Positions 6,400-60,327 of a stretch of 64,000 nt of DNA are shown piece after piece. Location of the stretch: positions 62,001 to 126,000 of the forward strand of contig JARVKI010000093.1 in the NCBI GenBank assembly GCA_036674765.1. The letters run 5' to 3'. The DNA is from Seiridium cupressi. Taxonomy: Eukaryota; Ascomycota; Sordariomycetes; Amphisphaeriales; Sporocadaceae. The position numbers and the translations under genes were made by a program. The notes beneath the pieces were generated by a model. That model saw nothing but the letters and a program-made list of their open reading frames with translations. It ran no database searches and was not told the origin of the DNA. The stretch's first letter is position 1. Each line of letters begins with the position of its first letter.

Positions 6400-8373
6400 A
6401 TGGCGGATACAATAATATTTGTTCTAGCGACTGTTCTCGTAGGGCTGATTCTGCACCGACTGAGTAAGATTGGCCAGCGACCAAAAGGGTATCCTCCCGG
6501 GCCGCCTACTCTCCCAATTATTGGCAACATCCACCTGATGCCCAAAGAAAACCAGCATCTCCAATTTCAAAAATGGGCTGAGGAATACGGTCCGGTATAT
6601 TCCCTCATGTTGGGGACGAAGGTAATGATCGTCCTCTCCTCAGACCAGGCTATCAAGGATTTGCTGGATAAACGCAGCAGTATCTACTCCTCACGGCCGC
6701 AGATGTATCTCGGCCAAATCATCAGCGGTGGATTTCGAATGCTTTTAATGGTATGTAACATGCTAATCACCGCGCTTTAATGCTGCACTGGAAATCAGAA
6801 ACTAAACTAGGCCTCAAGGAATATGGCGAAACGTGGCGTACGATTCGTGGCATTGTACACAACAGCCTTAACATCAAGGCGTCTCGCGCGTATGTCTCCT
6901 AACAGGACTTGGAAAACAAGGTCATGCTCCTAGGGTTTCTGGACACGCCGGAACAGTTTATTGATCACATTCGGCGGTTCACGAATTCTCTGACGACACA
7001 GATGGTCTTCGGCTTTCGCACCACTAATAATGACGATCCTAAGCTCAAGCAGCTCTATGATGTGCGTTTATTCTACTATTGCTGAAAGATAGGGTATTGA
7101 CCGCGGACAGGGCTTCGAAAGATTTGGAGAGGTCATTAGTGATGATTCAGCAGCGCTGTTAGACGTCTTCCCCGTCCTTCGCCATCTGCCCGACGCTTTG
7201 TTGCCTATGAGACGATATGCCAAGGAGCTGCATAAGAAGGAATATAGTCTCTACGTAGGTCACTATCTAGACACGAAGAAAAGATTGAAGGAGGGCAAGG
7301 CGAAACCATGCTTTTGCGTCGACCTTGTCAAGGCTCAAGACAAACAAGGGTTCTCTGACGGGCTTGCCGGCTATATCAGCGGCAGCTTACTCGAGGCCGG
7401 GTCAGACACAACGGCGGCAACGCTGGTCGGCTTCGTGCAAGCTCTTCTCATCTTCCCCGAGGTTGTCGAGGCTGGCCAAGCTGAGATAGATCGAGTCTGC
7501 GGAGAGCGAATGCCAGATTTGAATGACCTGCCGGACTTACCATACATCAGGGGGTGCAGTAAGCAACTTCCAGAGTTATTTCAAGCCCCGTATAGCCTGT
7601 TCTGGGAGTTTACCGGTTCCCGATTCAGCGGTTCTGCTCCTGAAATATGGTTTTGACCTCCCGACACCTCATTAAGCAGTTTAGAAGAAGCAAAGACTGA
7701 CTCCGGGTGTTGCAGTGAAGGAGAGTTTGCGATGGATGCCCACTGCCATCATTGGGGTTCCGCACGCGGTGACCCAGGACGATAAATATATGGAATACAA
7801 AATACCAAAAGGGGCGGGCGTCATGTGGAATGTGTGGTATGCTTGCGGCGCTCTTTGACGATATAATTTTTGTACATGCACTAATCTTCACCCAGGAACG
7901 TGGCAAATGATCCGAAGCGACATCCGAATCCACGTAATTTCGACCCGACACGGTGGGCAAACGACCACCAGACTTCGGCCGAAGCAGCATCGAACTCGGA
8001 TCCAACCAAGCGAGACCACTTCGTTTTCGGTGCTGGCCGACGTCTATGCCAGGGCATGCACATTGCCGACCGATCACTGTTCCTTGCTATATCTCGCTTG
8101 CTCTGGGCCTTCGACTTTCGCAGGGCAATCGATGAGAAGGGGGAGGAGATCATACCGGATATGGCAGCTCTAACAGGAGGATTGTTCGTGCAGCCAAAGC
8201 CTTTCAAGGCTGACATCAGGCCTCGCAGCACGTTCAAAGCCGAGTGTGTTCGCAGCGAGTGGGCCAAGATGATGGAGCTTCTCGATGAAGAGTTGCAGTG
8301 GAAGACTGTACCGGAGGGTCTTGTTTGGAGAGACTACGAACCTGCTGGGGCCGAAGCATCTTCCAAGGCTTGA
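6400..8373 (+). pseudogene. Cytochrome P450 monooxygenase with in-frame stop
   Basis: A microsomal P450 model in five exons: 6400-6750, 6819-7061, 7111-7558, 7716-7836 and 7896-8373, totalling 547 codons. It has an N-terminal membrane anchor (residues 3-20), the proline-rich hinge PPGPPTLPIIGN, the I-helix AGSDTT, the K-helix ESLR and the heme loop FGAGRRLCQG with the cysteine ligand. All exon joins keep frame. A TAA codon at 6900-6902, where relatives usually have an aromatic residue before QDLENK, stops translation after residue 144, before every catalytic motif. The rest shows no decay, so the lesion is either recent or a sequencing error. Intron 1 needs an AAG acceptor, which is uncommon. 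Intron 3 (7559-7715) is the introner-like element. The substrate cannot be told. The family resembles fungal O-methylsterigmatocystin-oxidoreductase-type P450s, but that is a resemblance only. Confidence 0.88.
7559..7715 (+). mobile_element. Introner-like element, copy A (P450 intron 3)
   Basis: A 157-nt intron, GTAAGC...TTGCAG, that splits codon M in C-MKESLR of the P450 (phase 1). By hand alignment it is about 84% identical over its whole length to the single intron of the HET gene (59951-60108, minus strand): 24 mismatches and one 1-nt gap. Both ends, the branch region (ACTGACTCC) and the interior are shared. The other introns in this window are mostly 49-117 nt and unrelated to it or to each other. 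Near-identical introns in unrelated genes are the defining property of introner-like elements, described in several fungi including Dothideomycetes. Mobility is inferred from the two copies. Confidence 0.75.
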
Positions 8374-8881
8374 AGTTAGTACGACTGGAATGTCCGATTT
8401 GGAAGTGAACCAAACAAGTGCAGGATGATCAAGGATAAACGAATATACAAAGTAATAATAAAACGGCAGTGCAATTTGTTGTCAAGCTAAATTGCAACAG
8501 TCAGCACGAGCACCAATCGCGTGAAGTTTGGTGACCTCATACGGACGTTCAATAGTCTAATCACGCGAGTCGTTATCCTTTATACAAACGACAAATATCG
8601 TACTGGCCACGTGTCAGCTCTAATGCCCCTTTAATCACGTAATAGGCTGCCAAGTTTCGTATCACTGGCTAAAATTTCTCATTCTTGCCTATGGCCTTTT
8701 TGTGATACTGTAGCGCTTTGTTCAGTTGCCGTGCCACTAAAGCAAGACTTGGAAGTGCACTTAAGAGTTGCCCCACATTTCTCCAATTGCGCGTTTGGGC
8801 GCGTCGTCGTAGCACTTACAAAGCACAACACCTTGGATCTGCGACGACACTTTTGCAACATCATTTCTGCTCAATGTCGCC
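8374..8881. other. Intergenic spacer between P450 and F-box gene
   Basis: This 508-base spacer separates two convergently unrelated plus-strand genes and should hold the P450 terminator and the promoter of the F-box gene. No coding or RNA feature is seen. Confidence 0.4.
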
Positions 8882-10930
8882 ATGCCAGCTGCTCTGACCC
8901 TTGCCGAAAGGCTTAAAAATGGCCAAGCCTGCTACAAAAGCGGCCATCTCATCGAAGCATCGCATCACTTCAAATTCGTAAGTAATTTGTTTCATCTGGC
9001 TGCTCAGCTACTGACGCCAACTCAACCCAGGTCATCAAGAACTGTTCTTGTCAGGCGGGCAAACCGAACTTGGAGTGCACATGCAGTGATTTTTTGGCTG
9101 CATGCAAAAATCGCACTCTAGATGGCGCGCTCCGTACATCATGCACATGTCCCCGCCGAGCCCAGAAGCGTTGCAAAGACGAGTCGCATATTACTGCGCT
9201 GGGCAGTCTGGTCATGGTGGCTGTGAAGGCTAAGGACTACAAGCTCGGCCTCGTATACGCCCAAAATCTCGTATACCTGGCGCCTAGAGATCCCCGGGGT
9301 TACCTTCGTGTTGGGCAACTGCTGCGTCTTACGGACAAGCACCATACCGCACTGGCTGTTTACCAGCAAGGCATTGGACTCGTGACACGGGCCAACCCAA
9401 ACCATTCAGGACTCCAAGCTCTGCAAGAGCAGGAGAAGGCCACGCGTAAGAGCATATCTCAGGTCGATCCCTTGGAGGCCCTTCCCTCGGAGCTCCTGGT
9501 TCTCGTTCTTAGTTACCTTAAAACGAGACAACATTGGTATGTTCCTGCCACCGCAACATAACTGCTCAGCACTTTCGCTAAGTTACCATAGTCGTTGCCT
9601 TCGAGTTTCTAAACTATGGAAGGCTTTCATGCAGAGCCACGCCGCCAGACCCCTGTGGCTAACTCAACACTTCGAACCCAGTATGAAGACGCCGATCAAG
9701 AGCATCAAGCCGAATATGGTGCAGAAATATTTCGCCACGTACCCGGGTGGCCAACTCCGCTCACTAAGAATTGATGATTGCACTACCGTTCCGCTCGTAC
9801 GCAGCAAGTTCATATCTGTTCTTCGCATATGCCCCCATCTTCATCATCTGGCACTCGGTGGCTCAGTTGTCATTGAGGCCTGTGACTTACCCTCTACGGT
9901 GAAGTTGCCGAAGCTGAAGTCTTTCTATCTTGGGCCTCAAGTAATTGTCTACAAGGAGCTTCTGGACCATCTAGTCAAAGCCTCCCGCGACACACTCGAA
10001 GAGCTTCACGTATTCAACCTGCAACACCAGAACCCGAGGTCCCCTCGGGGCTTGTCCACGCCTGATTGGCCACGACTACCCATACTGCACACACTGAAAC
10101 TCGAAGCTCACCCCGGTCATCGAGTCGATATGGGGCACATAGTCCACATTACCCCAAATGTCCGTACCGTATGGTTGGACAACATGTGTTACGATACAGC
10201 AGAAGATGCCATGGTAGCGCAGCCTCCTGAGCTGCAGTGGCCCAGCTTACAACGCGTTTCCATCAAGCGCAACGTCCTTTTCCCCATGCGACGAGTCTTT
10301 CCAACGCTGACCGAGGCCATAACTGAGCTGGTCCTCGAGGGGCCCAACCTCTCCCCCATCCTAGGCTTCCCCGCAGATGCAAACGAAAACACACCGTGTG
10401 TAGGAATGCTGAAAATCTCGGGCTGGACACAAGGCACAACCCCATTCATGCCCCGCTGGAACTTTCCGAATCTGGAGAGGCTCATTCTGAGCAGCAGATA
10501 TCCTCTCACGGCTGAAGCCATGTTTGTGCTCATACGGCCGTCGATCCAATCTGGCACATTGCGACATCTTGACCTTGATCCATTTCCCTGGGAGGTGATG
10601 AGGTGCGGCGGGTTCCGCAATGAGGACGCTACGTGTGTCACAGCACTGAGAATCAATTGTCTCATTGGCGAGGTCGGACGCTACGTCGACGACGCAGACG
10701 AGACTTTGCTAGAGCTCGTTAGTTCCTTCCCCAATCTCGAGAACTTGGACCTGGGGCCGGAGACGGTTTCAACTCTTACAGTTGGGCGCATACTTGAGGC
10801 GGGCGTGCGCAATGTATATCACACGCAAGGTGCGAGGTTGCTGGAGTTAAAGGAGTATGCCCGATCAATGGGGAAAGATGTCATTCGGGGTCCATATTAC
10901 GATATTGACCGCACTCGAGTGCCCAACTAG
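8882..10930 (+). CDS. TPR / F-box / leucine-rich protein (Pof3/Dia2-like)
   Basis: Predicted substrate receptor of an SCF ubiquitin ligase. Three exons, 8882-8977, 9031-9536 and 9592-10930, give 646 aa. Order: a TPR-like helical start, a Cys-rich insert (residues about 36-80, with CSC, CTC and CTC pairs), more TPR helices (about 85-155), an F-box at about 178-220 (DPLEALPSELL...LSYL...RCLRVSKLWKAF), then leucine-rich repeats to the end (LRSLRIDDC, LHHLALGG, LERLILSS, LRHLDLDPF, LENLDLG). This TPR-F-box-LRR order is that of fission-yeast Pof3 and budding-yeast Dia2, which act in genome stability. Many filamentous fungi carry several paralogues, so strict orthology is not claimed. The intron join within the F-box restores the conserved RCLRVSKLW. 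The gene is intact. Confidence 0.9.
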
Positions 10931-11325
10931 GGTTGCCTCGGCATGGGAATCAATGGGAAGCAATGCGTATACGCTCACGGTAGTTCATACTCGATGTCAT
11001 GTCTTCGCACTAGCATCAGCCTCGCCTGGGCGGAAAAGCCTACTGGCGATGGCCATATATATATGTGCAGGGTCAAGATGCCCTTCGGGAGTATATAGAG
11101 GCTTTAATGAACGGAACAAAATCCAGCTTCCATTAAAACATTACTAAAAACGTACGGACCGAGTTCTTCGTGTTCGTCAGTCAAAATAAAAACCCAATCC
11201 GGAACTCCTCATTATAACCTCATACCCAGCTTTGATAGCATGTCTAGACTCATATTCAAAAAAAAGCAAGCTTTTTGAAGCATACCAAAGTCTTCACGCC
11301 TCTCCTGATCTTGCAGCCGACTGCC

Positions 11326-13890
11326 TCACCTAGCAGGACTAGGCACCCCTTCCATGTTGCCCTGAATCAGGCTTTCCAACTCCCACGGATTCAGTGTGCT
11401 CCTGCGTCGTGAAACCGCCTTGCTAGGCCTCTTGTCACGTCTACGCTTCTCTGGCTTGAGATCTCGATCCTGCAGGCCCTCATTCGGCTTCATGAGCTCG
11501 TCCTCATCAGGGTCGGCGACCTGTATTACTGGAGGGGCTGGCATATCTCTCTTCACCGGATCCGTGCTTTCCCCTCCTTTCTTGGGTGATGTCTGTGCTG
11601 GCGCCATTGTAGTTGTCCCAGGCTTGCAACCCGTTCGAGCAGCTCTCAATTTCGCCCGCACGCGAGCTGCATCCGCTTGGCGCTCTGAAGCCTCGAGCTT
11701 GGCAGAAATGGCAGCCATCGTAATGGGGCTTTGTTGGACTGGCGGGTTATTGCGCCGCGGAAGGCGGGAATTACCCGATGGTCGGACTGGAGAGCGGTCG
11801 CGTGTGGTAGTATTGCCCGTGGATTTAGAGGTCTGCTTTTCTGTAGTAGGTGCTGTCCTCGTGGTCGCGTCCGGTGCAGAGGCCGTCCGTTTTGTTGTCT
11901 TTTTGGTGGACGATACCGGCTTGGGAGGACCGACAGGCGAAACGGCATGGTTTACGGCCTTTTTCTTGCTGGAAGCCTGTGTTGGCTGCTGTGACCGAGG
12001 AACGTGTGGTACCGGTATTTGTTGCTTTGTCTCCGTCTCCGCCTCCTGCTCCCTGTCCTTCCCTGTTTCCTGCTTCCTTTCCGGCTTCCTTTCCGGTTCC
12101 GTTGATCTAGGTGGCGGCTTCGAGAAGAGCTTGCGTGAAGGGTTCGAACGTATTGGTGATTCATACGATTCTCCGAATAGAGTGCTGTCATAAGAAGCCG
12201 TAGATGATGGTTTTAGCTGGTCCTGCATTTCTAATGCTGCTTTCAGGCTCTTGTGTGAAGGCTGAAGTCTCAACCCATGGGGTGGAGGTACTGGTGCTTC
12301 TGGTTCCCTCGTGGCGGCAGCTAGCTCCCACGTTTTCTCTTCGATGATGGTTGTAAAATCTCCTGGCTTCTTTCGATATGAATCGCTGTTGCTATTTTGA
12401 GAACCCCTGTTCACGGACGAATAAGAATCCTTTAACGGACTCAATTGTGGTGGGAAGGGCAGAGGAGGAGACTCTACGGATGTATCGGTCGATGCCTGGA
12501 GGACTTGGACATTGGGTTCATCGGCGTTGAGCTCGTCTATGTCGACATCATCCTGAAAGATACTGGAATCCTCATCCTCATCCTGTTCCTCAACTGCGTA
12601 GCCTGGTGCTGGTACCAGGTGTAATGACTCGGCACGACTCGGAGATCGGGATCGCTCAAACTGAGAGATTTCTTCTTCCTCGTCTTCTTCTTGTACACAA
12701 GACAGCTCTTGATGGTGCGTTTCGCAGTCTTGGGCGGGTTCCCTGGCGCCAGCCAAGCGCACAGGACTGAGACGTAATCCCATCTGTAATTCTTCCATGT
12801 TGACGGTCGTCCCGCTGGACGCCATACGCCTTCGCCAGCCGTCCATCATGTTGACAGCGTCTTTCCACCGAGCCTCCATCCGTTCCCACCCCTCGCGGAG
12901 CCGGACAATCTCCGTGTCACGGATCTCCACCTCTTCGATGGGCACGAAGGAAGGGTTCGTGAGTATCGTCCTAAGATGCTCCAGGATGCCCTCCAACTCG
13001 TTGGCTAGCTCTTCGGCGTTCCTGTGCGGCCGAGGAGGCGGGTTTGCGATCTGACCACCCGACCTCATGCTTTCGTCCATCGCACGATCCAGGCCGCTCA
13101 TCTCGCGTAAATTTTTGACGGTTCGATGCACCAGGTTCAAGAGTGTTGAGTTCTCCTCGCTGAGGCTCTTGGCAAGCTCGGTAAGGAATTCATTCGTCTC
13201 CATGCGTAAGCTGTATTCTTCGTCGTGTGTGCTCACACGAGTAATGCCATCGTCTGAGCCCTCTGAGCCAGTATCGCCGATGACGGTGATACTGACGACG
13301 TCGCGGTTCTTGTTGCCTCCTCGGACTCGCCCCGCATCCACTACGGCCTTCTTCAAGCTGTCGATTTGTCTGTCCCTCTTGCGGACTTCGTTGGCGCAGG
13401 CAGCGCGACTTTGCGCGACGAGAGACTTCATCTTGGCCATCTCGTCCTTGAGCTTGTGCACTGTCGACTCGGTGGACTTGACCTGGAGCCGCAGAGTGCG
13501 CTCGGTCGCGTCGGCGCCATCGAGCTTGCGCTGCGTATCTTCCAGCCTTTCCGATAACCTCGCGTTCTCTGTTGTATGTCGTTGGGCGTCGGCACGGAGG
13601 GACAGCAACGTGTTGCTTAGGGACTCGCGCTGGACTGCGTCACGCTGAGCAGAAGGGGATAACGTTTAGTCACATCTTTCTTGGACTACATATCTCGGAG
13701 ATGAACTCACATCGCGCCTTAGTATCAAGTCATTAACCACGCCCATGATTTTGCCCATGGTCGCCTGGAGCCCCGTGCCCGCGTCCGGGTCGGCAAAGTC
13801 GATGTTCTGGCCATCGCGCAGGAGGCCGCGGGATAACAATTGATTGTTGATGTACAGCGATGCTGTCTTGAGGTTGTCGGACTCGATCAT
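11326..13890 (-). CDS. Coiled-coil protein, ADIP / Msd1-like
   Basis: Two exons, 13890-13711 and 13644-11326, are joined across a 66-nt GTGAGT...CAG intron, giving 832 aa. The N-terminal 60 residues (SLYINNQLLSRGLLRDG, then LMKIMGVVNDLI-type helix) continue into a long coiled coil, about residues 60-270. This matches the afadin- and alpha-actinin-binding (ADIP/SSX2IP) family. Fungal members such as fission-yeast Msd1 and, as I recall, Aspergillus TINA anchor microtubules at the spindle pole body. The middle is acidic and serine/proline rich. The C-terminal third is basic and disordered (EKRRRDKRPSKAVSRRRS). The family call rests on the N-terminal pattern from memory, so it is moderate; the gene itself is secure. 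It is convergent with the F-box gene. Confidence 0.8.
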
Positions 13891-16703
13891 GGCGAGAGAT
13901 GACGCCCGTCGGGAACTGACGCAGATGGCAATTGGAGTGGCTTGTCACTTGTCGCTGGGGCGGCCGAGTTCCTTCATGTAGCAGCGAGCATTGGAAGCCT
14001 CTCAGCACTGAGCAAACAATATATAAAATTCTTCAATAAGAATTTGAGGCCCTGAAGCTCCACGGGAATGGCAGGGGACCGAGCTATCGACGACAGGGCT
14101 GCATGTAAATTGAGATTACCCAGGTGAACCCCGGCTCGCTGGGCAGTGGTGGAGGTTTGTCAACGAGGTCCCTGAAAGTGGCATGTTTTGGCGCCGTTGC
14201 TATGGCCCGAGTAAACAATCTTTGACCAATGCCGACAGGGGTGCGGGTTGACGTCTCCAAGCCCGACAAATCCGATGAAGATGCAGCTCGCCGCCCGACT
14301 TGGCACTAATCGCTCCCGTCACGTGGGAGCTTATCGTTGACCAGCGAGTCGACTCTGCCGTGACATGCCGTGACATGCAGGGACGGAATTGATCACAACT
14401 GCGCTCGATCAATTGTGCGATGCCATGTGTTTTGTCTGACGCTGCTTCTACATGAAGCACAGCAGCTGCCGTTGCTATGGGCCTTGCCCGTTCGTCGCCA
14501 TCTCATTGGATCGCGCAGGCGAGCCAAACAACCGAGGCCGCGGCTCTGGTTTCCGCGACCCCGACGTCGCATCTAATAGAACCGATTTGATATGGCGATC
14601 TCACCAGATTCCCAATTATTTTCATTATTTTATGCAATTGGCGCTCCAGGTAGTATGAGTTCACCTTAGTTAAGACAGCGGCAGCTTAGCCGTTGCCACA
14701 TCCACGTGCGGGCTTGCGGAAGCACAGATCACACAAGAGCCATATCGACGTCGCCGGGTACATTATGGAGTTGATGGATCCAGGGACTCCCGCTAGTTAG
14801 TTCTCGGTTGAGTCATTGCTTCGGTGGGGATTTCTAACGCAACTGACTCGACGCAGACTTTACGTAAATGCTTCTTCACCACTACTCATGGTTGGGGAGG
14901 AAAGAGATGGAGGAAAGAGATGGAGGAAAGAGATGGAGGAAAGAGATGGAGGAAAGAGATGGAGGAAAGAGATGGAGGTCGATGTCCCGTAGGTCATTAA
15001 GCTGTGCCAGCTCCTTTGTTCCCTAGCCACATAGACAGAAAAATACAAGCTTCAGAATAAAAGCCCGTATTCAGTGATCATAGGGCAGTAAAACCATTGA
15101 GGAGGCTCGCGGGTAACTTATCGCGAGTGTCCGTCCCATGAGTATGTCCGCTCGTCGCGAACATGTATCATTAGTATTCGACCGAAACCTTTGAATACAA
15201 CGCCGCCCTTCAACTTCCCGCTTATAACATTGTTGTCAAGTTTAACTTGTCTCGTTTTCGTGAGCATTGCTTCCGCTCAGGATTTGCGAAATTTGGGCCA
15301 GGACTCGAGGCCGTTATATCAAAGTCTGGGCGGAAGTCGTAGCTTGTGTTGTGCCTTAGGGACTAGTTACGATCGTCATGATTATGTAGTTTGATGATGG
15401 CTCTAATGCGGCAATGCCAGCCGTCGCAAAGTCTTTGCGCTTCCACGCGATAAGAAGCGCCGACAAATAATGATTAGGCACAATAGTCCGAATTTAAATG
15501 AGAGTCCTGCTTAGGTACTGGCAAGCTCGTATATACTTGAGTAACACGAAGAATGATTCTTCGCAAAATCAAAGCAGTCAACATCCCAACATCAAGCTCA
15601 GTGAATTTGGAAAAGCTACCTATGCACGACCCAAGAAAAGCGGAAGATGACAAGTGCCGGTTCTCAGACTTCGTGGGATTGGATCAAGTTGAGCGTGAGA
15701 TGCAGCTGAGTACTTGAAAATGAATCCTTGGACACTTTTGTCGTTACGTTGCCTTCCCTTCAACTCCAATTCATACCCAGAGATACACCGAGAGTTTAGG
15801 GGCGCTATTGAAACGAGCTGGCCATTAACACTTAGTTAGCAGATCGCTTTCGCTTCTTGTTCAATAGAATGTCTATTATTTTGGGAGCAACAACGGCGCA
15901 CACCATAGGCAGCAGTTTCTTCTGACCTGGAGTTCTCTGTACCTTGCTCTGAAATATTGGAATCAAGTGCTGTGTAGACGGACAATGCAAGCGTGGTAAC
16001 ACATGCTGAGAAAGTACCGTAAGTATTCCGTTTGCTACTCGGAATGCCATTGGGCAGTGCTGTTCAATGGCTCGTTACATACAACCTCATTTTTCGGTGT
16101 TGAACACTTAGCTGAACAATGGTCTGCTTCAGCGTCCTGGGAATAGATGTGTGAATTGACGAAGAAAAGCGAAGGAGGTGTTTGCACTTGGAAATTGTCG
16201 GAAAAGTAGTTATTTCAGGTTGTATTTAGGTTCTGATCTTTAGATTAGTGATATAATGACAAACGGTCGTCGCTTTATCATAGACGAACCCGACACTACA
16301 AACACCTGCAGATGCGCCTTCCGCCAGGCAATCGATACTTGTGACCTATCTAGCACGCAGTATACGCAGGGTGGTGCTGTATAATTAGACGTGCTTTATG
16401 GGAATTGATCCCAATATTATTGACGAAAACATACTCTAGTGGTAAAAGCAAAGCGAAAAATTCCTTAGAAGAAATAGCTCTGGTTCCAAAGAGCTTATAG
16501 AACGAATTGCGCAGTACGTGCTAGCCAGCGTAGAACTTCAGTTGGGAGTGCAACTGGCTGCTGATCTCCAGTTGTTCATTAATATAGGACTGACGAATAC
16601 TGTCTGGTCGTTACTGATACGTATTATAAATTATGATACGATTTTAAGCCACGTCTACTATTCAGTGTTCTTTAGTGGAATATATCTCTATGTTTCTCTC
16701 GTA
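13891..16703. other. AT-rich gene-poor interval
   Basis: About 2.8 kb without a supported gene. It contains the 13-bp minisatellite (14896-14978) and frequent AT-rich patches. A 72-codon minus-strand ATG frame at 16050-15832 with a basic tail (NKKRKRS) is open, but nothing recognisable supports it. Confidence 0.45.
14896..14978. repeat. 13-bp minisatellite, six copies
   Basis: The unit GGAGGAAAGAGAT occurs six times in perfect tandem (14896-14973), followed by a partial GGAGG. The array is purine-only on the plus strand. It is intergenic, between the ADIP-like gene and the lectin relic. Confidence 0.95.
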
Positions 16704-33948: not shown

Positions 33949-34276
33949 GCCGGTGCCACTATCGCACTCTTCGTATTCGGCTTTCTCGTTTGGCTGTCAG
34001 GCAGTATCTGCAGCAATTGGGTACAATGTATACTCCTGGGAGGGATGGCTATCCTGGACATGGCCAGGCATATGCTAAAGGAAGCGGTTGTCTGCCCTGG
34101 AAGTTTTCGATTGCCGGTGCCACTATCGCAGTCTTCGTATTCGGCTTTCTCGTTTGGCTGTCAGGCAGTATCTGCAGCAATTGGGTACAATGTATACTCC
34201 TGGGAGGGATGGCTATCCTGGACATGGCAAGGCATATGCTAAAGGAAGCGGTTGTCTGCCCTGGAAGTTTTCGATT
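33949..34276. repeat. 164-bp tandem duplication, two copies
   Basis: The segment 33949-34112 is repeated immediately as 34113-34276 with only two differences seen (C/G near 34131 and C/A near 34227), and a third copy starts for about 10 bases at 34277. The unit is not a multiple of three, so the open frames change between copies. One frame in each copy is strongly hydrophobic (TIALFVFGFLVWLSG). Confidence 0.93.
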
Positions 34277-37200
34277 GCCGGTGTCGGTTATCTGCTAATT
34301 CCAGAATAGCTCTCAGGGATCTTCTCTCATGTCTTGGAAGTCGGACCCAGGGGCTTGGTTGGATCGGAGGACGAGGTCGATCTGGGTTTCGAGTTCTGAA
34401 ACAGTTGACACTCCCATAAGGCAGAAGAGATCTAGTGTGGCTGGGGGAGATCGGCCTGAAACATACAGATAGATACCCGCATCGAGCCAGCGCCTGCATG
34501 GGCCTTCGTGCGACCTCTATTGGGCCAGAACCGAGCCTAACTAGGCTCGTTATGATATGCATCGTAGATCTCACTCAAACGGACTCTGCAGCTCTTGGGC
34601 CTCGGTCGACGTTGCCAAGTCCTCCTATACTCTCCAGATGCGAGTTTTTACAGAAACAAATACGGAGACTGGAACTCTGACTGCGTTAACCACGCAAGCC
34701 GTGCAATTGCTGGAGTCAGCCATGGAGATTCGCGATGCATCTGGTTCTACAACTGTTGCGATGTGCTAAATTCTCCAGGGCCTTTCGGCCTCTATCAAGT
34801 TGCTGACCCCCACCAAGCACCAGCTCAAGTCTCTCCAAGTCCTCAATCAACAAGAGGTAGTAACTGCTTCAAGGAGACCTGCGCGCTGAACCCAACCTGC
34901 GCTTCGATGATAATAATGCCGAGATACTAAGATGATGAGAGATGAAGATGCAGTGAAGATGCAGTGATGATACTGCTCACCGTACGGCAACCAATAGTGC
35001 AACCATGAGACAATTGTCGTGCAAAACCCCTGTATGCACAGCCAATGACCCCTGCTAGAGAGAAATCGTCAGCACCAAAGCACTGCTGCGTCTTAGCTTA
35101 TTCTGGAAAGAGTTGGCACTAAATTCAGAAATAGTCGATGCTCGCTTCGATGTGGACTTATGGTCTAGTCAGAACCATCGTCAGTCAGCGTTACCAGCAT
35201 GACTGCCGCCAGAACGTCTGGGTACCTCAGGTCGCCAACCGGCATCCGAACCACCTGCCAATAGCATCATCATCCCTTGGAAGCATGGTACGACCCGCGG
35301 CTCATTTTTAAGCCTGGAGATGCGGGATGGCTATGGTCAACGCTGACCACCCACCGGTGACAAGACGAAGAAGAAAAAACTGCATCAGTATAGGAAATAG
35401 AATTGGACTACGCCGTTCGTGTTGTGGACAGCTCGATCCCTCAAGCTGTACCTGAAGCTACTTTGGATTAGGTCCACTCTACAGACGACTTCGCAAGTAG
35501 TTCTGGCCCAAATGTGGCCCGTCCTTGTCCAGTAACTAGCTCAGTACCTTACATACCTACGCTACTTGAGAGACACTTTGTTATTATAGTTGGTGTTGCG
35601 CATTGACCGTGCAAGCAGAAAATGATGCTCTATACTTTTATCTACCTACGAAGTCGATGCTGCTGGACGTCACCATGGAATTGACCTTGTAATCTCACAC
35701 TGTGACATGGGGAGGGGAAAACACTTACTTATCGAGCATGCCATGATATAAGGTTACAAATCGTCGTAGGCTTAGAAATTGCCGTGGAACTGAGCACATT
35801 TAGCTTCACAAAGTCTATTCTAGGCCGATTTGATGCAACCAGAAGTGATCAGCGGCGACGCAAGGTTACCCAGGTAGGGCTGTCACGAGTTTAGGTAACT
35901 TGCAGCTTGAAGCTGGATGTTGCTCGAGCGGCGTCAAGTTGGAGGTGAACTATCTGACTAAACGGCCGAGGCGTGCGGCACTAAACTAACTCACTGGGGC
36001 GAGCGGATGGTGTGCACCATGGTTGTCGATTGCGGTATGATAAAGAGTGAAGGCCTGGCAACGGCCCCAATGCAGTGTGTAGTTCATTTCGGGACGTTGG
36101 GTTTTTCGATGCTGCGACCGAGGATGCCGTCCGTGTTTCCCAAAACGTACCGCGGATCGTTCGCGCACAGCCGGAGACCTCAGGAAAGGTGTTGGCTGGC
36201 GGCAGCTGAGGGCGAGCGCAGATTGGCTGGAATGCGCCCGGGTACCTAGCAGAGCCTACAGCGCCGTTAGGGCCGCGGGCACCTCACCCGCGGGGTGGAG
36301 CCCAGTCCCAAGCCCTGCAGTGCTAACCTAACCTTGGAAGTGCTACACAGCAGCCAGCGCATCCCAGCGCATCCCTGGCGCTCTTGCCTGGCCCTTCCCT
36401 GGGCCTGGAGGTCGAGTGATCAACTCGGCATATGTACACTGCAAGGGCTGATGCACCGCATCAGCCCTTCTGCACGACTTTGCTCGGATTCGGCCCTCGT
36501 CCGTCCCAGGAACCCCAAAGGCCGGCGGTATGACTCTTTCGTCCTGTGCTCGATGGATGACTGACGCTCTGCGCATCAATCCGTCCGCCGAGGTCCACCT
36601 TGCCCATGTACCCTACCGACTACCTACTACCAACTATGACTTTGACTGCCATGCAGCCCCATCTGTGCTACATTGTACATCGTACTGCGAGCCATCAACA
36701 ACGGAGCGTCGGCCATCACCCACCAGACGCACCCCACTCCATCATCCTCCCTGAGTGACCCGAGAACGAACGTACCGTTCTCTATCCGCACACACTACGC
36801 GTTGCTCTATACCTCCTCAGACCCCCAAGGCCCCTCGCTGCGCCTTTACTCATCATGGCAAGGCACTTCCACCCTGCGCCATCTCGTTCCATGTACCCAT
36901 CACCTGCGAGAGCTGCATGAGACTTGCATGCAAGATGCAGCCTTAATCAACCTACTGTCCTTTTGGGACTGTAAGACTATTTCGTCACTGCTGCCTTCCC
37001 TGGCCCTCTGCCCATGACTGCCGGTCCCCAGGCTCCAGGCTATAAGGCTACGATGCCTTCTTCACCCCAGGGCTTGGAACGACACCTGACCCTCACTGTC
37101 ATTGACATTGTTCCTTATTCTTACTACAGTTTCCTTTCGTCACCCTTCCTAGATCTGCTTCTTGTCGCCTTAATATCTCTTCTGCCCACCAACTCGAGAC

Positions 37201-51582: not shown

Positions 51583-54500
51583 GGCTGCCAAGTGTAGACC
51601 CTCCTCCGTGTCTGCGGGCTCTCCGGTGCCAACCTGAAGGCAAGCGGGCGTCTCGCCATCTTTAAACAGCTCCAACGTAGCAATAGATGATGGCTGGCCA
51701 TGTCATTTGGTTCCTTGCATGCCCGGAAATCTGGGTTTCTCCAACGTGCCAAGGGACTGTTCAAGGGTCAAATGCGGGGAGATGGGGTACGGGGAAGCTA
51801 GAGCCGAGATTTTCAGTGCTCACTGGGCCAACATACGATGGTCTCCAAGATCGTCAATGGCACTTCATTGAAGGAAAAACTCACCCTTGACCTAGACCAA
51901 GCCTAATGAAACTTGGGTGGATAGCACTCAATCACATCAGAGCCTGCCAGTAAAGTACAATGTAAGATTCGGCTCCTCGGCGCTCGTGGGTACCAGTTCC
52001 CGAAATCCAAGTCAACCAAACATATACACCGACAGTTACACAAGAGTCATTCGCGTCCGCAATTCCAAGTCGTTGGAGCGCCTAGTATCAACACATCAAT
52101 GTATTGCCAGTGCAGAAGTCCGTCAATTGGATACAGACGAAGCTGTAGAATTAGTAATCAAGTAGTGTTTAGACCATCTGTAGGGCAAGGTGCCGTTGTA
52201 TGAGATATGCCGGTATTGAAAACGATGCTGAGTCACCGGCACAGACGCTCATTGCCTTATGACGCGGGGACTTCTGCATCGAGACATATCTCATATGATG
52301 GTAGCCGGCAGTGAAGCTCTCTCCCTTTGCCGGAATAAGTCGGGGCAGGCCTCAGGTTTGAACTTGTGGACATGAAGATACAGAGCCTATTTGCACTCAT
52401 ATGTGAATGCTTAATGAGGTTTGGGCTTGGCGGAGAAATAGCTGTCAAGCCTCCTTGACTTGAAGCATCGTAACAAAAGTCGACCTGTGCCAGAGGATTC
52501 CATAAGGGGATAGAAAGAACTAGCAACTCTTTCTCCTAGCCGGAGATCGATTCTTCTATACGGCGTAGTCGAACGAGGTTCGACTAAGCTTACACAAGCA
52601 ATCTGCGTTTCGGCTGATCGATATGAGATCGGGCTGCTATCTTCGGCGCTGGATCCCCACACGACGACGCTAGAAGCAAGTACTGCCCTAACCAGTGCTC
52701 AACTACATTGTAGCGCTAGGGGCCATCAGCCTCATACATGGTACTAATGTAAGTAACAGACGGGTTAGTTTAGGTTGTTTGGACGAGGTTGATTGAACAC
52801 ATACCGGTTGTCAACATCCACATAGGATACTGATAGGATATTCCATACCTTTTTGTCTGCCTCTATTCGAATTCTCTATCACGGTTTCGATGGAAATAAT
52901 TCAAGGGACTAGGTTAGTCTAAAAGAGCTGCTGACATGACACAGACAATACCAATAGACTTGCCTTGGCCGCCTATGTAAGCTCCAATTACGCATAGTTT
53001 CATAATAAGCACAGAGGCGCGAAACTGTGATCATGCCTATCTCCAGCTTTTGCGCAAGCCCTGCTGTTAAAGGTTCTCGCACGCAAGAAGCTGCAGAAAT
53101 GCGTCATCACACTCAAATAAGCACACATAAGAGTCGACGTCCAGCCATCTATCTGCCACCCTGTAGTCAAAGGTCCCACGACTATGGGAATGCAGATCTG
53201 CGCGTTGGCACGTGCAAGAAGGAAACTAAATGAAGCAGCGATCATTTGATATCAAATGGGATCTCTCAAGCAGCCAGAGGCAGACTCTGGGACCAGATGT
53301 TTTTTCTTTTCCCATATTCTTCGAGGAGACTCTTTGGAGGACCCATCTCTCGATCAAATGTAACGACACCGACGCACCTGTGCAGGAGCCTGAGTGTACA
53401 ATTGGGCTTGCTCGCTCCCAGCCAAGGAAAGAACGAAGAAGGTTCGGACTCATCACAGCCTCAACACACCATACCGCTCAAGAGTCCAAGGCAAATGTTG
53501 TCTGAGAGAAAGGGGGCAATGAGAATATCCAATATGCCCAAGAAGCAAGGTCTCACCCAACAAGACTGACGTTGGCCCGAACGTTACCGTCACAATGACT
53601 TGGGAGCACCTTTCGTGGCTGGTCTGAAATGCGAGGTAACACTGCAAAATCGGCCAGCTGAAGAAATATCTCAAGTACGCGTGAGCCTGCCGAGGATCGT
53701 GGGATTATACAGCAACTCTTTCGGAATGATATTGCCGAATTGGCATGCCTCGCAGGAGTCTAGTGTCCAACATGACGACTACTCATAACCGACTGACACC
53801 ATCTAGTCAGGTGATGGTGTGACAAAGTGTCCCTGGCGCACAAGGCCTGTCCAAAGGACCTTGATGGTGCATGAGAGAGCCGAGAAACGGAAGGCATCGG
53901 GTCTCGGTCGAATGTCTGTTTACATCCAGTACGGCTTCGGCTCGCGGAGAAATATCGAGTAGCCATGGCATGGGGCTCATGTTACATTGGATGAGAACTA
54001 CCGTCTCATGTCCCGGCTATTGTTGATTACAAGGCCTCTCGTACGAGTCCGGACCTAAAATAAAAGGCTTAGCCATAGGTGGAAGCCAGCCCCTCCCACG
54101 TGCGTGCAGGGAAAAGCAGATCTTTTTATCCCGATGGACCACATTGTCGTAACATACCGACGTTACTTCAGCCGTCCGCTACCGAGATTGCGCCTGGCGG
54201 GTGACAATTGCAATAAGGAAAAGCTTGTGTTCTTTTGATTTGATCGAAGAAGGCAGTCAACTTTGAAATACCAAGCAATTGGCGAATTAGCAGTCCGAGC
54301 CTTTCCCCACTCTCTGCGCGTTGCGACTTCACATGTCTGCAGCCAACTGCACTATAATATCCCATCTACTATTGGCCCCGGCCACGAGGTTGCATCAAGA
54401 ACCATGCCAACCCAACTCTTTGCCCGATTGAGCAGGTCGCCGTTTCGCATCCTCGATACTTGTTTATTGGTTTCGCCATTAGACCTGCCAAAGAGCCCCA

Positions 54501-54962
54501 AGCCCCCGTCGACAGGACCAACGGCATGGATCAAGTGCAACACCAAAGCCAGCGCTGCCGCGATGGCTCGAGTCTCGCCTGCGCAAAGTTTCTTGCACAG
54601 GTGCCAGATCCAGAACCTCATCGCGAGTTCACTGCTACATCATGGGGGCTATACAGTAGCGTGACGAGATCTGGCGATGCTACTGAACCACCGCGGGAGA
54701 CCTGAGCAGCCTGCAAGCCTTTGGGAAGCTGTAACGCGGCTACCCCATCCCAGATCTAACCGACGTGGGCACCACATACAGGGATAGAGAGAGATGTAGC
54801 TGGTGTAGAGAGTATGTGCTGTCTATAACAGTCACGACATATGGTTCCGAAATATGTGTGCTAAATGTACATATCCACGATGATCTCCGACTTATAGTCT
54901 CCAATCTGACTATGCGGCTCTAGCCCTCGTGGCCATTTCACTCTTTGTTCTGGATACCGACC
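51583..54962. other. Gene-poor interval
   Basis: About 3.4 kb without a supported gene. It contains the GH79 promoter at one end and the lipase promoter at the other. ATG frames at 53230-53505 (91 codons) and 54404-54664 (86 aa) have no recognisable motif. Confidence 0.4.
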
Positions 54963-56380
54963 ATGTCACTCTTTTACTTTGTCTTCCTAACTCTCCTTGG
55001 TGTCGCTCTTGCGGCGCCGGCGAACAGTAATACCTGGCCTCGCACAGATGGACCTTCAGGTTTGGCTGTTACGGACCCTATCCCCCCAAAACAAGATCCG
55101 TGGTACACGCCGACTGTTGGCTGGGAGTTGACGGATCCGGGGAAAGTCCTACGTGTGCGGGTTGCTCGGGGGCAACTAGGCTTGACGCTAGATAATCTAG
55201 GGGCGGCTTACAACATTCTCTACCGCACGACGGACAGCAACGCGCAACCATCTTGGGCTGTGGCCACACTCCTTATCCCACCGACACCGAATACTACACC
55301 GAGATCACTATTGTCATACCAGGTACCCTACGATTCTGCCGACCTAGATGCAGGTCCTAGCTATACTCTCTCTCAATATGCGTCGAACGGCAGAACACCC
55401 GGGAATTGTGTCTCTGAGATCGACAAAGCTCTTGCTGCCGGCTACTACGTCACTGTACCAGACTACGAGGGCCCCCTTGCATCATGTAAGTTCCTAGTAA
55501 TACCTCATTGCAGTCCTCGTTTGGCTCAGTCAACTAATCCAGCGCAGTCACGGCAGGGGTCATCTCCGGACAGGCCACTCTGGATGCTGTGCGAGCATCT
55601 GTAGTTACTGACATGGGTCTTCCTGGTATCCCGAATGCCAAATATGTCTTATGGGGATACTCCGGTGGAGCATTGGCAAGCGAATGGGCAGCCGAGCTTC
55701 AGAGCACATATGCCCCTGAGCTCAACTTCAGTGGTGTCGCCGTCGGTGGCCTGACACCAGATACCTTCAACGTCTTCAACACGGTTAGCGGTACGTACAG
55801 TGCCGGCCTCGTCCCGCCTGGCGTCGTGGGTCTCGTGAGCCAGTTCCCAGATGCCCAGACATACCTCTTCGGCAAGCTCAAGACGACCGGGAAACACAAC
55901 AAGGACAAGTTCCTCTCGGTGCAGAACCTAACCCTAGATCGGGAGGCACCCATGTTTGCCTTTGAGAACATATACGACTACTTCGTGGGTGGTGTCACCG
56001 TCTTTCTCAACCCGCTCATCAGCGCTGTTATTGACAGCAACGGTAAGATGGGCAACCACGGTATCCCGCAGATGCCCCTATTCGTTTACAAGGCCATCCA
56101 GGATGAGGTCAGCCCCATCGCCGACACGGATGCCTTGGTCGACAAGTACTGTGCGGCCGATGCCACGATCACGTACGACCGCAATACGCTTACCACGCAT
56201 AAGGATGAGCAGGATGCCGAGAGCGCAAATGCGTTTGCCTTCCTGAAAAGTGTTCTGGCTGGAACTTATGTGCCTCCCATTGGGGGATGCACTATTAGAA
56301 ACGTCTCCATTCCAGGCCCGAGCAAAACCCCCAACGGTGGTGCCAGCACTCAGCCGCTCACGTTCATGGACTGGGACTAG
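54963..56380 (+). CDS. Secretory lipase (LIP family)
   Basis: Two exons, 54963-55485 and 55548-56380, separated by a 62-nt intron (GTAAGT...CAG, CAACTAAT branch), give 451 aa. Start: the ATG at 54963, followed by a signal peptide (MSLFYFVFLTLLGVALA). It has an alpha/beta hydrolase fold of the fungal secretory lipase family that includes Candida Lip enzymes and Candida antarctica lipase A. The nucleophile is S213 in GYSGG. The likely acid is D350 (IQDEVSP) and the histidine H382 (TTHKDE). The D-to-H spacing of 32 equals that of C. antarctica lipase A. The family oxyanion region YEGPLASFTAG and paired cysteines are present. Role: extracellular hydrolysis of triacylglycerols or other esters. Confidence 0.92.
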
Positions 56381-57217
56381 GACTGCTCCGATTAGCGTAA
56401 CAGCTCAACTTCCTCGTTTGCACGCCAAATAGAGGCCGAATAAAGGAAAGTCTGGGGATTTTCTTGGGGATAGTGAGCTTATTGGGTCTTCTACGGTACA
56501 TCCCGCCAAGGCTCTGGTGATATTGTACTATACGTCAACAGACAATTATGTTTAATCCCAAGTCGTTGAAGAACACGGGGAGCTTCATTGCATTGATGCG
56601 TCGTATCTTTCCTTTCGTATTTCTTCAAGGAGATATAAAATCTGCAAGAGCAACAGTTAATGCCCTTGGATCTCGAGCGATCACAGCTCGTGGACGTTGG
56701 TAGGTTATATCATACCACAATGGGGCAGTAATATGACAGTACTAATCGTATTGTTCGTATATCAATCGCTATATATAAAATTACAACCACATGAAATCAT
56801 AAGTTTTCGAAGAGCAGACGAGCCCCCCTTTTCTGGCCCGATCTCATTCCGCGATACGGAGCGCTGACAGGAGCGGGGCTTGGTAGACGTCAGACGCGAT
56901 GTTGGTTTCAGCCTCGGTTTCGTGGATCGGCCGTTATTCTGTAGGGGTCATCGAATAGCGGTCGTTTACACAGGCCCATCGAGTTTTCTTCCAAGGCGGC
57001 TACGCACTTTCGCTCACTCTCCTGTCAAGCTACGATTTGCGGCTTGTATAGAGTCTGTACAACACTGTGCTACATATCCCTTTGGACAAACAGGTGACTT
57101 CGATGTTTCGCAGATTTTAGTAAGCACGTTCACATGAGCAGTATCATCCTGGGGCTTCGACCCCTGCTATGTTACGAGCACTTGACCATGCGGAACCTTC
57201 ATCATTAACCTCACGCT
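56381..57217. other. Intergenic, no gene seen
   Basis: The 3' flank of the lipase gene and spacer, with AT-rich patches. No coding feature is supported. Confidence 0.45.
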
Positions 57218-57643
57218 CTACCCTGTATCTCTAGGTCGGTAGCAACTCAATTTAACAGGCTTCTGGCAAGAAACTATCGCCGATAATATGTGCTCCTCAT
57301 TGTTGGTTGACATGGCGTCGAGTTCAAGGTCAAGGTTGTCCTCCGGCAGCTCACGGATCTCGGATGCGCTGGCTGCTGCATTGTGATCACGCAGTCCATC
57401 AACTGCAAGTGGGTTCACACAGTCGAAACGTTGTAACAGGCACGTCATGATCACTCGGTAGCCGGAAAGACTTGCGAATTGGATTGCCAACACCCCAATT
57501 GCTGTTGAGCCGCCGTCATGGGCGATGACTGTGACCGGCGGCGGCTGAGCGGGATAGCAGTGTTCATGGATGTTGTTGTGGCTGGAATTGTTATCGCAGA
57601 TTTGATATACTAAGTCTACTAGACGGACTGCAACTCCCGCAGT
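57218..57643 (-). pseudogene. Enoyl-reductase / zinc-type dehydrogenase fragment
   Basis: A minus-strand frame reads TAGVAVRLVDLVYQI...VTVIAHDGGSTAIGVLAIQFASLSGYRVIMTC and then LLQRFDCVNPLAVDGL...IRELPEDNLDLELDAMS. This is the NAD(P)-binding Rossmann portion of fungal trans-acting enoyl reductases (LovC-like), whose usual glycine motif is GGSTATG and whose next strand ends in TTCSP. The N-terminal GroES-like substrate domain is missing, and an in-frame TAA lies just upstream. The C-terminal half is also missing. It is therefore a remnant of a gene of the kind found in polyketide clusters, but no polyketide synthase is in the window. Confidence 0.65.
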
Positions 57644-58420
57644 TTAGCACATCTCCACACGAGACAGCTCCAACCTACGAGGAGCGCGGGAGAGGTTAGC
57701 GCCGCAAAGGACGCACATATATAAATATATTAATTATACGACGGATCAAGGGTCTTGAGTGACCTGGCTAGGGAACGGTCTTTCATCAACAACCTTTCCA
57801 CATATCCGCCGAGATACGAGGATGAACTCTTACCGTCATGACCCAAACTTTACTAAATATCAAGTGCCAGGAGCCACGGTCATGTCAGGGAATTTACAGA
57901 TTTCTTGCGGCCTGGTTCGTCACCGACCATTAGGCAAAAGGGGGAGGGTGAAAGCTACATGTATATTGGGAAATCTCAAAGGCAAGAATGTAGTCTCGTT
58001 CGAGGAGGCGCCGGGGCTTTCTTGCGCACAGTTACAATATACCATGATGATGTTTCGTGTCGCAGATGACCCATTCTTAAATGGTGCCAGATTTTGTGGT
58101 GGCATTACAGTCTGAGTGGTCGCTCTTGTCATATATCCGTTTAGCCGCGGCTGTGCATTTTCTTGTTAACAAACGTCTTATGGGAGCTGACTGATTAGGT
58201 ATGCCCTGAAATCTCATGCGATTGGTCACATAAACAACAGAGCTCTATTATCAGGGGCACTATATCGTGGTGCTATCAAGATACAGGTAGAAACGATGCA
58301 GGCTGGCAGGTACGGACAGACAAGGCGCCTGCCGGCATTCATACTTCTTGCAGCTCTCGACAATCACAAACATACAACGAATTTACTGCTGTTCAACGCA
58401 CCCACCCAGAGCTAGCTAAG
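57644..58420. other. Intergenic between ER relic and HET gene
   Basis: No supported gene. An open frame 57759-58115 starts with GTG and has no motif. Confidence 0.4.
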
Positions 58421-60327
58421 CTATATCTTGCTTACCATAGAATCCTGGACCCTGAAGTACACCTTGATGACCCCAAATCCAGCATCACTGGCCCTCCCAG
58501 CCACCGAAAAGACGGCATCAAAGCGCGGGTCAAGGCTGAACCTATCTTCCCACAGAAGGCCTGTTCCATTTGGGTAATTCATGTGCTTTTGATTTTCAGA
58601 CCACCTCCATCTGTAAAGTATATCCTTTGGCGAAGCGTCGGGTGCCGTCCTCTCAATGCGGTAGATGAACCCACCGGTATATCTCATGAACTTGAAATAG
58701 GCCAAGATGGGCTTATCGAAGCCCGTCAAGAGCCAATATCTGTCCCCGCGTTCCAGGGTCTGTGTCTTTCTCCACGTCTCCGAGTCGATGATGCGAAGCC
58801 CATGGGTGGTGGCGAGAGAACTCATCGACTGGGAGGACACAATGGTAGGAAGCCCCCCTGGATTTTGATCATAAGTACGGATGGGGACTTTGTAACTAAC
58901 TATGTTAAGTGGCTGAACCTTCCAATTCAAAGTTTCGGCGGGTGATATAAGAACGTATTGCGAGATAACAAAACATACTGCCGGTAAGGAATCGCCGCTC
59001 AAGCCCTTCGCATTGAGGTCAACAAATAATAAGGTAATGTCAAAGTACTGAGAGCTTATGGTTTGCATTAGATTGCCGGAGCCAGTGCTATATGCCCGGT
59101 GAACTTGTTTATATAAATCGTCCCATGCGTACAAATTGAGCGCTGCGAAGTTCCAGACATATTTGCGGTCAAGTTTTAAAGTTCTTATGTCTCTCGGGGT
59201 TAATTTTCGCACCGGAAGATGTATGCGTAACCTTGGTCTTCCGGCCTGCAGGTTGTTGACATATCCTGACTGGCTCCAGCGGATATTTGCTTGTCTTCGG
59301 ACCATGGGGTCTGCACGAAAGTCCTTCGGGGACTGTGCAATGAGTCCGGGGACATCAGTTAGTCTCGGTACCGGGCGATCAGGAGCCCATGGACTTAGAC
59401 CGAACGACAGTAGCGTGTGGCCATCGGTTGCTGTAAGTATATGTTCTTGCAACCGGTAGAAAGCCTTCCTGCCCTCGCCGTAGAGTAGGGGCATGTTAAC
59501 ATCGAAAAGTCCGAGCAAGCTGTAAGACAAATCCTCTACCCGAGTCGCTTGTCGGTATGCCGCCCACCGCATTTTGTCGCCGGCAGGTTTTTCGTGCAAC
59601 GAGAGTGCATGGCTTAGAATGCTAGGGTCTATTCCAGTCGCTTTGGATAGTAGTGGCTTCAGGTCATTTTTGCTGCCCAAGTACGCCCATTCTTTACCGA
59701 AAAACTGTACTCGCCTTGGCGCAATGAGCTCTTGCAAGGTCCAAGACCGATAGAACCAGCGACACGGCAACGGCGAGGCAGGTGAGCTCCTTGCCAAGTG
59801 TGCTGCCATGTCCTCCAGCCGAGCCTCCAGATTCTGTCGCGAATCAATATCGCTTAGATACGCATAGCAGACCATAGCGTGTTTGTACCAGTGGAACATG
59901 GAGTTGATGGCCTCGGACAGCTCTGCACTTGAGCTTTTGTCGATACAGCACTACAACATCTGGAGTCAGTATTTGCTTCTTCTAACATGCTTGGTGAGTT
60001 GTCGGGAGTTGAAACCCCATGTTTCAAGAGCAGAAACGCTGAATTCGGAACCGACAAACTCCCAAAACAGGCTATACGGTGCATGAAATAACTCCGGAAG
60101 TTGCTTACTGTATCAATCCAGACCCACTCCCAGCCGTCGTTCAGGGCTTCCGCACAGCATCTTTCAATTTTCCAGAACCCATCCCTTGTGCGAGCTGTTT
60201 CGAGGTCGCTGATAACCTCATACAGGACCTCGCCGTCTTCCCAAGTATGTGAAAGAATGGCATAAGGTGGGATGTTCGCGCCGACAAATTCCTCGAGTCG
60301 ATATGACTCGGCGTTGAGAAGACGCAT
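58421..60327 (-). CDS. HET-domain (heterokaryon incompatibility) protein
   Basis: Two exons, 60327-60109 and 59950-58421, give 582 aa. The start MRLLNAESYRLEEF is the usual HET beginning. The HET domain covers about residues 1-170: YAILSHTWEDGEV, WEWVWIDT|CCIDKSSSAELSEAINSM, WYKHAMVCYAYLSDI, RWFYRSWTLQELIAPRRVQFF, ending near LYGEGRKAFYRLQEHI. The remaining C-terminal half has no recognised domain. HET domains are TIR-related and trigger cell death in allorecognition or innate immune responses of filamentous fungi; which role this one has is unknown. The intron (60108-59951) splits the WIDT-CCIDK motif and is the introner-like element copy B. The gene is intact. No partner STAND or NLR gene lies nearby. 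Confidence 0.93.
59951..60108 (-). mobile_element. Introner-like element, copy B (HET gene intron)
   Basis: A 158-nt intron, GTAAGC...TTGTAG, phase 0. It aligns from end to end with P450 intron 3 (about 84% identity, one gap). It can form a nested stem: GAGTTTGTCGG with CCGACAACTC (one bulged base), enclosing TTGAAAC with GTTTCAA. The exon flanks are ACA|TGC here and GCA|TGA in copy A, both CA|TG. Stable structure and full-length identity between introns of unrelated genes are the hallmarks reported for introner-like elements. Ectopic gene conversion between two ordinary introns is the main alternative. Confidence 0.75.

Follow-up and report, generated by a model that had tools for sequence, protein, structure and literature searches.

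Introduction

The origin of new introns is an old question, and the elements described in ascomycetes do not fit the DNA-transposon model: their introner families, present in Pezizomycotina, stand as outliers without terminal inverted repeats or target-site duplications (PMC9860276). In Dothideomycetes, the introner-like elements of Fulvia, Dothistroma and Zymoseptoria are canonical introns that occur in many copies in unrelated genes, some of these copies being near-identical, and insertions at no more than 15 bp from ordinary introns of other species have been reported (PMC4457414). Insertion of fungal elements is described as seamless, and a preference for AG/GY sites, where the slash marks the point of insertion, is credited to van der Burgt et al. 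(PMC8469720). We consider here two introns found in a stretch of 64,000 nucleotides of the Seiridium cupressi genome (contig JARVKI010000093.1, positions 62,001 to 126,000 of the forward strand), subsequently called the window. The evidence supports their assignment to a family of introner-like elements of the ascomycete type, whose unit, predicted to be a spliceosomal intron, measures about 157 nt and has multiplied in this organism.

The other systems that come close to this situation are the sister stwintrons of Hypoxylaceae and Xylariaceae, which are inserted seamlessly and without target duplication, are functional on the coding strand only, and display terminal symmetry together with a near-terminal stem (PMC8469720, PMC12403724). 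In Hypoxylaceae their insertion sites are presented as unbiased (PMC8469720), 288 stwintrons lying at seemingly random sites (PMC12403724). A route linked to RNA or to transcription has been argued for fungal elements (PMC8469720, PMC12403724).

A multi-copy family of introns in Seiridium cupressi

The family comprises many copies that are delimited by their own splice sites, lie in unrelated genes, most often in sense orientation, and occupy (C)(A or T)/TG targets. Its two window members, copy A in a cytochrome P450 gene (PF00067) and copy B in a HET gene (PF06985), match each other with 84.8% identity over 158 columns (23 mismatches, one gap, E 2.8e-46, BLASTN within the window). An earlier note on this DNA had located both introns where we find them and had seen their end-to-end similarity, put at about 84%; its alignment of 158 columns with a single gap stands, while its 24 mismatches become 23 with BLASTN. 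It had also described the host genes as unrelated and on opposite strands, as they are. When the window is compared with itself, the match runs 2 nt beyond both intron ends (CA on the 5' side, TG on the 3' side, 162 columns in all), and the next-best matches inside the window span just 11-18 bases. The spliced HET product coincides with a public S. cupressi protein, at 100% identity over 582 amino acids and with the same exon junction, and the P450 fragment shares 99% of its residues with a protein of Seiridium unicorne and 96% with one of S. cardinale.

Extending the search to the 45,361,241 bases of the S. cupressi genome (Sporocadaceae, Amphisphaeriales), BLASTN returned at least 40 matches for each window copy, among which 35 and 40 were end to end (40 of 101 and 108 candidates being scored, respectively), so that the family is not restricted to the window pair. 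Patterns derived from the element ends, with up to three mismatches allowed, led to the same picture: the 35-base pattern of the 3' end is found at 56 places (control 0), the 25-base pattern of the 5' end at 102 (control 0) and the 21-base pattern of the 3' end at 140 (control 2). We read 93 distinct copies, and the 86 of them that align to the 3' end, spread over 55 contigs, are the basis of the counts given below; among the seven excluded, four keep a TAG/TG end of their own (115, 152, 157 and 160 nt) and three have no visible one. The proposal of the earlier note, that this genome carries an introner-like family, thus holds at the scale of the genome, with matches lying exactly at introns of unrelated genes and 86 of the 93 copies spanning the full intron between its two splice sites.

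The ends of the element are constant in the 86 complete copies. Its length varies between 137 and 160 nt and is exactly 157 nt in 47 of the 86 copies. The 5' splice site reads GTAAGC in 72 copies and begins with GT in 85, the last one, L094, having a GC donor. A branch-point motif was found in 83 copies, with the branch A placed 15 nt before the end in 81, and the 3' end is TAG or CAG in 85, the single decayed end being that of L089. Similarity within the family begins at GTAAGC and stops at TAG, only the target bases being held in common outside these limits. Were the intron retained, the reading frame would run into a stop in 50 of the 57 copies for which this frame is clear. At least two subfamilies can be told apart, and no longer version of the element was seen among the 93 copies read. 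In 15 pairs of copies the identity reaches 93-99.4%, and in none of them are the 80-nt flanks similar, which points to recent multiplication.

Individual copies deserve mention in their own right. A young subfamily comprises L082, L102, L088 and L105 (contigs C28, C53, C80 and C77), where L082 and L102 are 99.4% identical within unrelated flanks, a near-identity which suggests recent activity. At 115 nt, L112 (C12:26223, minus strand) retains both recognisable ends and looks like a standard element with an internal deletion. L069 (C66:230181-230335 and 230356-230513) is made of a pair of copies with just 20 nt of exon between them, in a gene that resembles a transporter by eye, and L018 and L070 (C2:500168 and 501123) lie about 0.95 kb apart in another gene that is again transporter-like by eye, one of them being a 137-nt variant. 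As for L094 (C5:45776), the copy with the GC donor, its surroundings have no clear coding potential, and it may be an insertion outside genes or one in decay.

Seamless insertion at a biased target

Comparison with relatives of the host genes shows whether the insertion added anything to them. Paralogues of both window genes in the same genome run without interruption through the junctions (for example on C80, C51 and C115 for HET, and on C56, C120 and C86 for P450). Among HET homologues the junction residue is Cys in 117 of 119, with unchanged spacing in 117 of 120 (by motif match, three being unmatched), and the P450 junction corresponds to a single residue, without a gap, in all 120 homologues (Met 51, Val 44, Ile 25), with equal spacing in 116 (four not matched by the motif). 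Other copies behave likewise: Trp is kept over TG when the isochorismatase-type copy is compared with two YcaC-like PDB hydrolases, which we take to be bacterial, and Met is kept over TG when the bleomycin-hydrolase copy is compared with yeast Gal6. In the beta-galactosidase and serine-dehydratase copies, Cys faces Ser or Ala, without a gap, in the printed PDB alignments, one of the two beta-galactosidase alignments having Ser at the next place, likewise ungapped; in 120 closer homologues of the serine dehydratase the residue is Cys in 58 and Ala in 43, with 19 unmatched by the pattern. Residues encoded over TG being conserved, TG belonged to the target; wherever the comparison could be made, insertion neither added, removed nor duplicated target bases. 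The idea that TG is part of the element was accordingly rejected, since in several sets of homologues its codon specifies a residue that is conserved, and no residue is gained. Direct repeats flanking the 86 copies are no longer than in shifted controls, also when the offsets are independent, and a 3-bp repeat outside CA and TG is found in 2 of 86, for 1 in the shifted control.

The target, which the earlier note did not mention, is far from indifferent. Counting exon bases from the intron, with -1 the last base before it and +1 the first base after it, T stands at +1 in 85 of 86 copies, and TG at +1/+2 in 78, to be compared with 6.2% TG in long open reading frames. The commonest words are CATG (36), CTTG (11), TATG (7) and CCTG (7), with C(A or T)TG accounting for 47; CA precedes the intron in 38 copies. 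G is nearly excluded from both sides (2 of 86 at -1, 1 of 86 at +1), and AG never precedes the intron (0/86). The bias extends downstream, A being found at +3 in just 3 copies and a purine at +7 in 71, with weaker effects at +4 and +9. When codon position is controlled for in the 57 clear sense copies, +7 (p about 6e-6) and +3 (about 1e-4) hold, +4 and +9 become marginal, and -2 and -1 remain biased; it should be kept in mind that the flanking positions, 32 in all, were inspected after the fact. In 24 putative short ordinary introns TG is never found at +1/+2 (0/24), while G occupies -1 in 9 and +1 in 6; this control, drawn from a relaxed search (a stricter one found none), shows no TG bias but is weak, as it does not reproduce the AG/G consensus. 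Our survey of the literature gave no description of a CA/TG target preference for introners.

The word CATG also occurs three times inside the element consensus (nt 24, 88 and 119), with 0-3 occurrences per copy in 80 aligned copies.

Host genes and orientation

Once spliced, the flanks are open in their best sense frame for 55 of the 86 copies; in longer frames drawn for 16 copies, most of them from those that are not open, many show by eye long sense frames beside the junction, which is consistent with further introns nearby. A coding score anchored at the junction is higher for the sense than for the antisense strand in 73 of 86 copies, 57 being clear sense and 25 lying within 2 units. This orientation, together with the lack of target-site duplication above control, is not what would be observed with mainly intergenic hits bearing terminal inverted repeats, the outcome that the earlier note had set against its own proposal, even though an imperfect near-terminal inverted repeat does exist in the family. 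Among four nominally antisense copies, L097 and L102 are sense by eye, but a Pfam match was found in neither, and L094 and L003 have no clear strand.

When ten spliced segments from the 86 were submitted to Pfam, a domain spanned the junction in nine (DAO, C1-like peptidase, M28 peptidase, P450, GH2, PALP, isochorismatase, HET and Zn-cluster), with none for L016. Ten further segments, mostly short, gave a match at E<=1 in seven cases, several of them weak, and a GH3 match lay wholly 3' of the junction. The Zn-cluster segment, compared with PDB, gave no match. In the 57 clear sense copies, phases 0, 1 and 2 are represented 23, 21 and 13 times.

Predicted fold of the intron RNA

The consensus sequence is predicted to fold as a rod with paired ends, nt 5-20 facing nt 140-155, through a complementarity that is imperfect and includes wobble pairs. 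This near-terminal stem has more than 5 expected pairs in 61 of 80 copies, and the consensus fold pairs 88.7% of cells, versus 32-43% when it is slid. Stability with respect to shuffled sequences is uneven, the z-score being -3.5 in copy B but no lower than -0.3 in copy A and -1.0 in L082, a young copy, with a mean of -1.4 over 20 copies against mononucleotide shuffles. RNAalifold returned 5 pairs only and did not recover the near-terminal stem. With covariation at the level of shuffles as well, a conserved RNA structure is not supported, and a role for the stem is only suggested.

How new copies may arise

Seamless and sense-biased insertion of an element that carries both of its splice sites argues for a route linked to RNA or to transcription. 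We think it probable that this is an introner-like family copied via excised intron RNA, with a sequence-selective step at CA/TG. The excised intron RNA would be the source of new copies; it would be inserted into a transcribed gene, on its coding strand, either through reverse splicing or through ligation at a break, before being copied into DNA. Because ordinary splicing prefers G on both exon sides of the intron (AG/G), and the target is CA/TG, a separate selective step seems to be needed, distinct from the ordinary exon preference of splicing: this might be the cut of a nuclease, or recognition of the 3' exon by pairing or by a protein. The stricter proposal of a sequence-choosing introner, moving by RNA-based, transcription-coupled transposition to CA/TG-B-R-N-N-R with the help of a dedicated factor or of pairing, can be put forward tentatively; if true, CA/TG, which is unrelated to the splice-site consensus, would imply that dedicated target recognition takes part in intron birth.

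Several observations weigh against copying through intron RNA, or against the evidence on which it is built. A near-terminal inverted repeat is present, as in DNA transposons; simple reverse splicing does not predict the CA/TG bias; and covariation in the fold does not exceed that of shuffles. The public HET protein which supports the junction of copy B is itself a prediction. Strand calls are coding scores, with 25 of 86 within 2 units and 4 of 86 nominally antisense (L094, L097, L003 and L102), and 10 of 86 copies show weak coding on both strands. Random positions at the same loci score sense above antisense in 73% of cases, with 60% clear sense and 13% clear antisense, a control that is no independent null, as the loci were oriented by the element, and that shows surroundings which are mostly sense. 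Finally, two P450 paralogues (on C24 and C50) show a split as well, at query residues 72-75 where the junction is at residue 71, with gaps of 61 and 74 nt. An ordinary-length intron thus seems to stand at or near the P450 junction in part of the P450 family, so that the position of the P450 intron may not be new: the window intron may result from a parallel gain or from a replacement, or it may occupy an old position.

Could the family be a miniature inverted-repeat transposable element, that is, a non-autonomous DNA transposon with short imperfect terminal inverted repeats, CATG-like targets and no target duplication, which carries splice signals by chance? Antisense and intergenic copies would then be rare through target choice or selection. 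The imperfectly inverted ends of the element, the palindromic nature of CATG, its commonest target, and the copies with weak coding on both strands all fit such an origin, and the right end, TAG/TG, resembles the termini of CACTA elements. The latter (En/Spm) are characterised by CACTA...TAGTG ends, a 3-bp target duplication and a matching transposase; the resemblance concerns the ends only, the 3-bp repeats being at control level, and a CACTA origin was rejected. A search for the PF02992 transposase was uninformative, with no match for the controls either. It is also true that introner families elsewhere among eukaryotes are mostly of DNA type in appearance (PMC9860276). Against a DNA transposon we have the lack of target-site duplication above control, the preference for sense, and the failure to see a longer relative among the copies read; moreover, the target bias is asymmetric, being more marked and reaching further 3' of the insertion, and CA, which precedes fewer than half of the copies, is no fixed part of the element. 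On balance this origin appears unlikely.

Within the intron-RNA explanation itself, one version, not an additional explanation, supposes that the excised RNA is ligated at a double-strand break and that repair then copies it, as was proposed for the stwintrons of Hypoxylaceae; the breaks would here be made by an enzyme that prefers CA/TG. It would account for seamless insertion, and the near-terminal stem would hold the intron ends together (in the 61 of 80 copies mentioned above), as argued for stwintrons (PMC12403724); yet repair by itself gives no reason to expect a sense bias, and the published stwintron sites are described as random, so that we regard this version as doubtful. Segmental or gene duplication of intron-bearing genes, without any mobility of the intron, is a rival of a different kind. 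Both window genes come from large gene families, and an intron is present close to the P450 junction in the two split paralogues; their gaps of 61 and 74 nt are not of 157 nt, however, many paralogues have no intron at the window junctions, the hosts span many unrelated families, and similar flanks are absent from all 15 pairs at or above 93% identity. This last point led us to reject duplication, which is extremely improbable.

Features of the window

The positions that define the two copies and their hosts are collected in Table 1. The P450 frame 5' of the introner is broken by an in-frame stop at window positions 6900-6902, the S. unicorne relative being listed at 546 amino acids; this may reflect either a damaged P450 gene or an unrecognised small intron. 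The window further contains a tandem duplication of 164 bp at 33949-34283, whose two copies are 98% alike.

Table 1. Introner copies, their targets, predicted stems and host exons in the window (window positions), with the split P450 paralogues elsewhere in the genome
Feature	Position	Strand	Remark
Introner copy A, P450 gene, GTAAGC...GCAG	7559..7715	+	157 nt
Introner copy B, HET gene, GTAAGC...GTAG	59951..60108	-	158 nt; same exons joined in public protein
CA, 5' exon end, left half of copy A CA/TG target	7557..7558	+	read from sequence; agrees with family consensus
TG, 3' exon start, right half of copy A target	7716..7717	+	within ATG codon
CA, 5' exon end, left half of copy B target	60109..60110	-	
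TG, 3' exon start, right half of copy B target	59949..59950	-	TGC codon
Branch-point motif CTGAC, copy A	7697..7701	+	branch A at 7700, 15 nt before intron end
Branch-point motif CTGAC, copy B	59965..59969	-	branch A at 59966
Near-terminal stem, copy A, 5' arm	7563..7578	+	predicted, without covariation support
Near-terminal stem, copy A, 3' arm	7698..7713	+	predicted, without covariation support
Near-terminal stem, copy B, 5' arm	60089..60104	-	predicted fold
Near-terminal stem, copy B, 3' arm	59953..59968	-	predicted fold
Open P450 reading frame immediately 5' of copy A	7093..7558	+	limits of the open frame
HET exon 1	60109..60327	-	73 codons
HET exon 2	58421..59950	-	includes stop codon
Split P450 paralogue (entry G000)	C24:123469-123109	-	gap 61 nt
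Split P450 paralogue (entry G000)	C50:93873-94294	+	gap 74 nt

Comparison with known systems

A family whose activity seems recent, and which is seamless, strongly sense-biased and sharply site-selective, places testable constraints on the mechanism of intron birth, and any mechanism must explain both the preference for CA/TG and the near absence of G at the cut (2 of 86 before it, 1 of 86 after it). It also points to introners in Sporocadaceae. We found no description of introners in Sporocadaceae, Pestalotiopsis or Seiridium, nor of CATG targets, in a survey that did not cover the supplementary species lists of PMC9860276, where the S. cupressi genome may be listed.

With the introner-like elements of Dothideomycetes the family shares its nature of multi-copy introns in unrelated genes, inserted seamlessly and without target duplication, and the near-coincident gains reported for those elements (PMC4457414) are comparable with the case of the split P450 paralogues. 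It differs from them in its host, a member of the Sporocadaceae among Sordariomycetes, and in its target, CA/TG and not AG/GY: as we have seen, AG never precedes the intron and G is found once at +1. This distinction is one of description, not of sequence comparison.

The sister stwintrons and the type-2 cropped sister introns are close in another way. Hypoxylaceae belong to Xylariomycetidae, and Seiridium provides a host from the same subclass, with seamless insertion and a near-terminal stem, here predicted. Unlike sister stwintrons, however, the element has G at -1 in so few copies that there is no GGT start and no nested [D1,2] intron; its terminal symmetry is short and imperfect, and its insertion sites are strongly biased.

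The introners derived from DNA transposons (Huff et al., Gozashti et al.) are, like the present family, non-coding intron elements in many copies, from which it departs by having neither a target duplication nor a splice site co-opted from the target, both splice sites being inside the element. As for group II introns, their retrohoming is a seamless insertion of RNA at a favoured sequence. Should the RNA route be correct, the likeness would be one of mechanism, not of membership: no protein is encoded in some 157 nt, and the signals of the Seiridium element are those of a U2-type spliceosomal intron.

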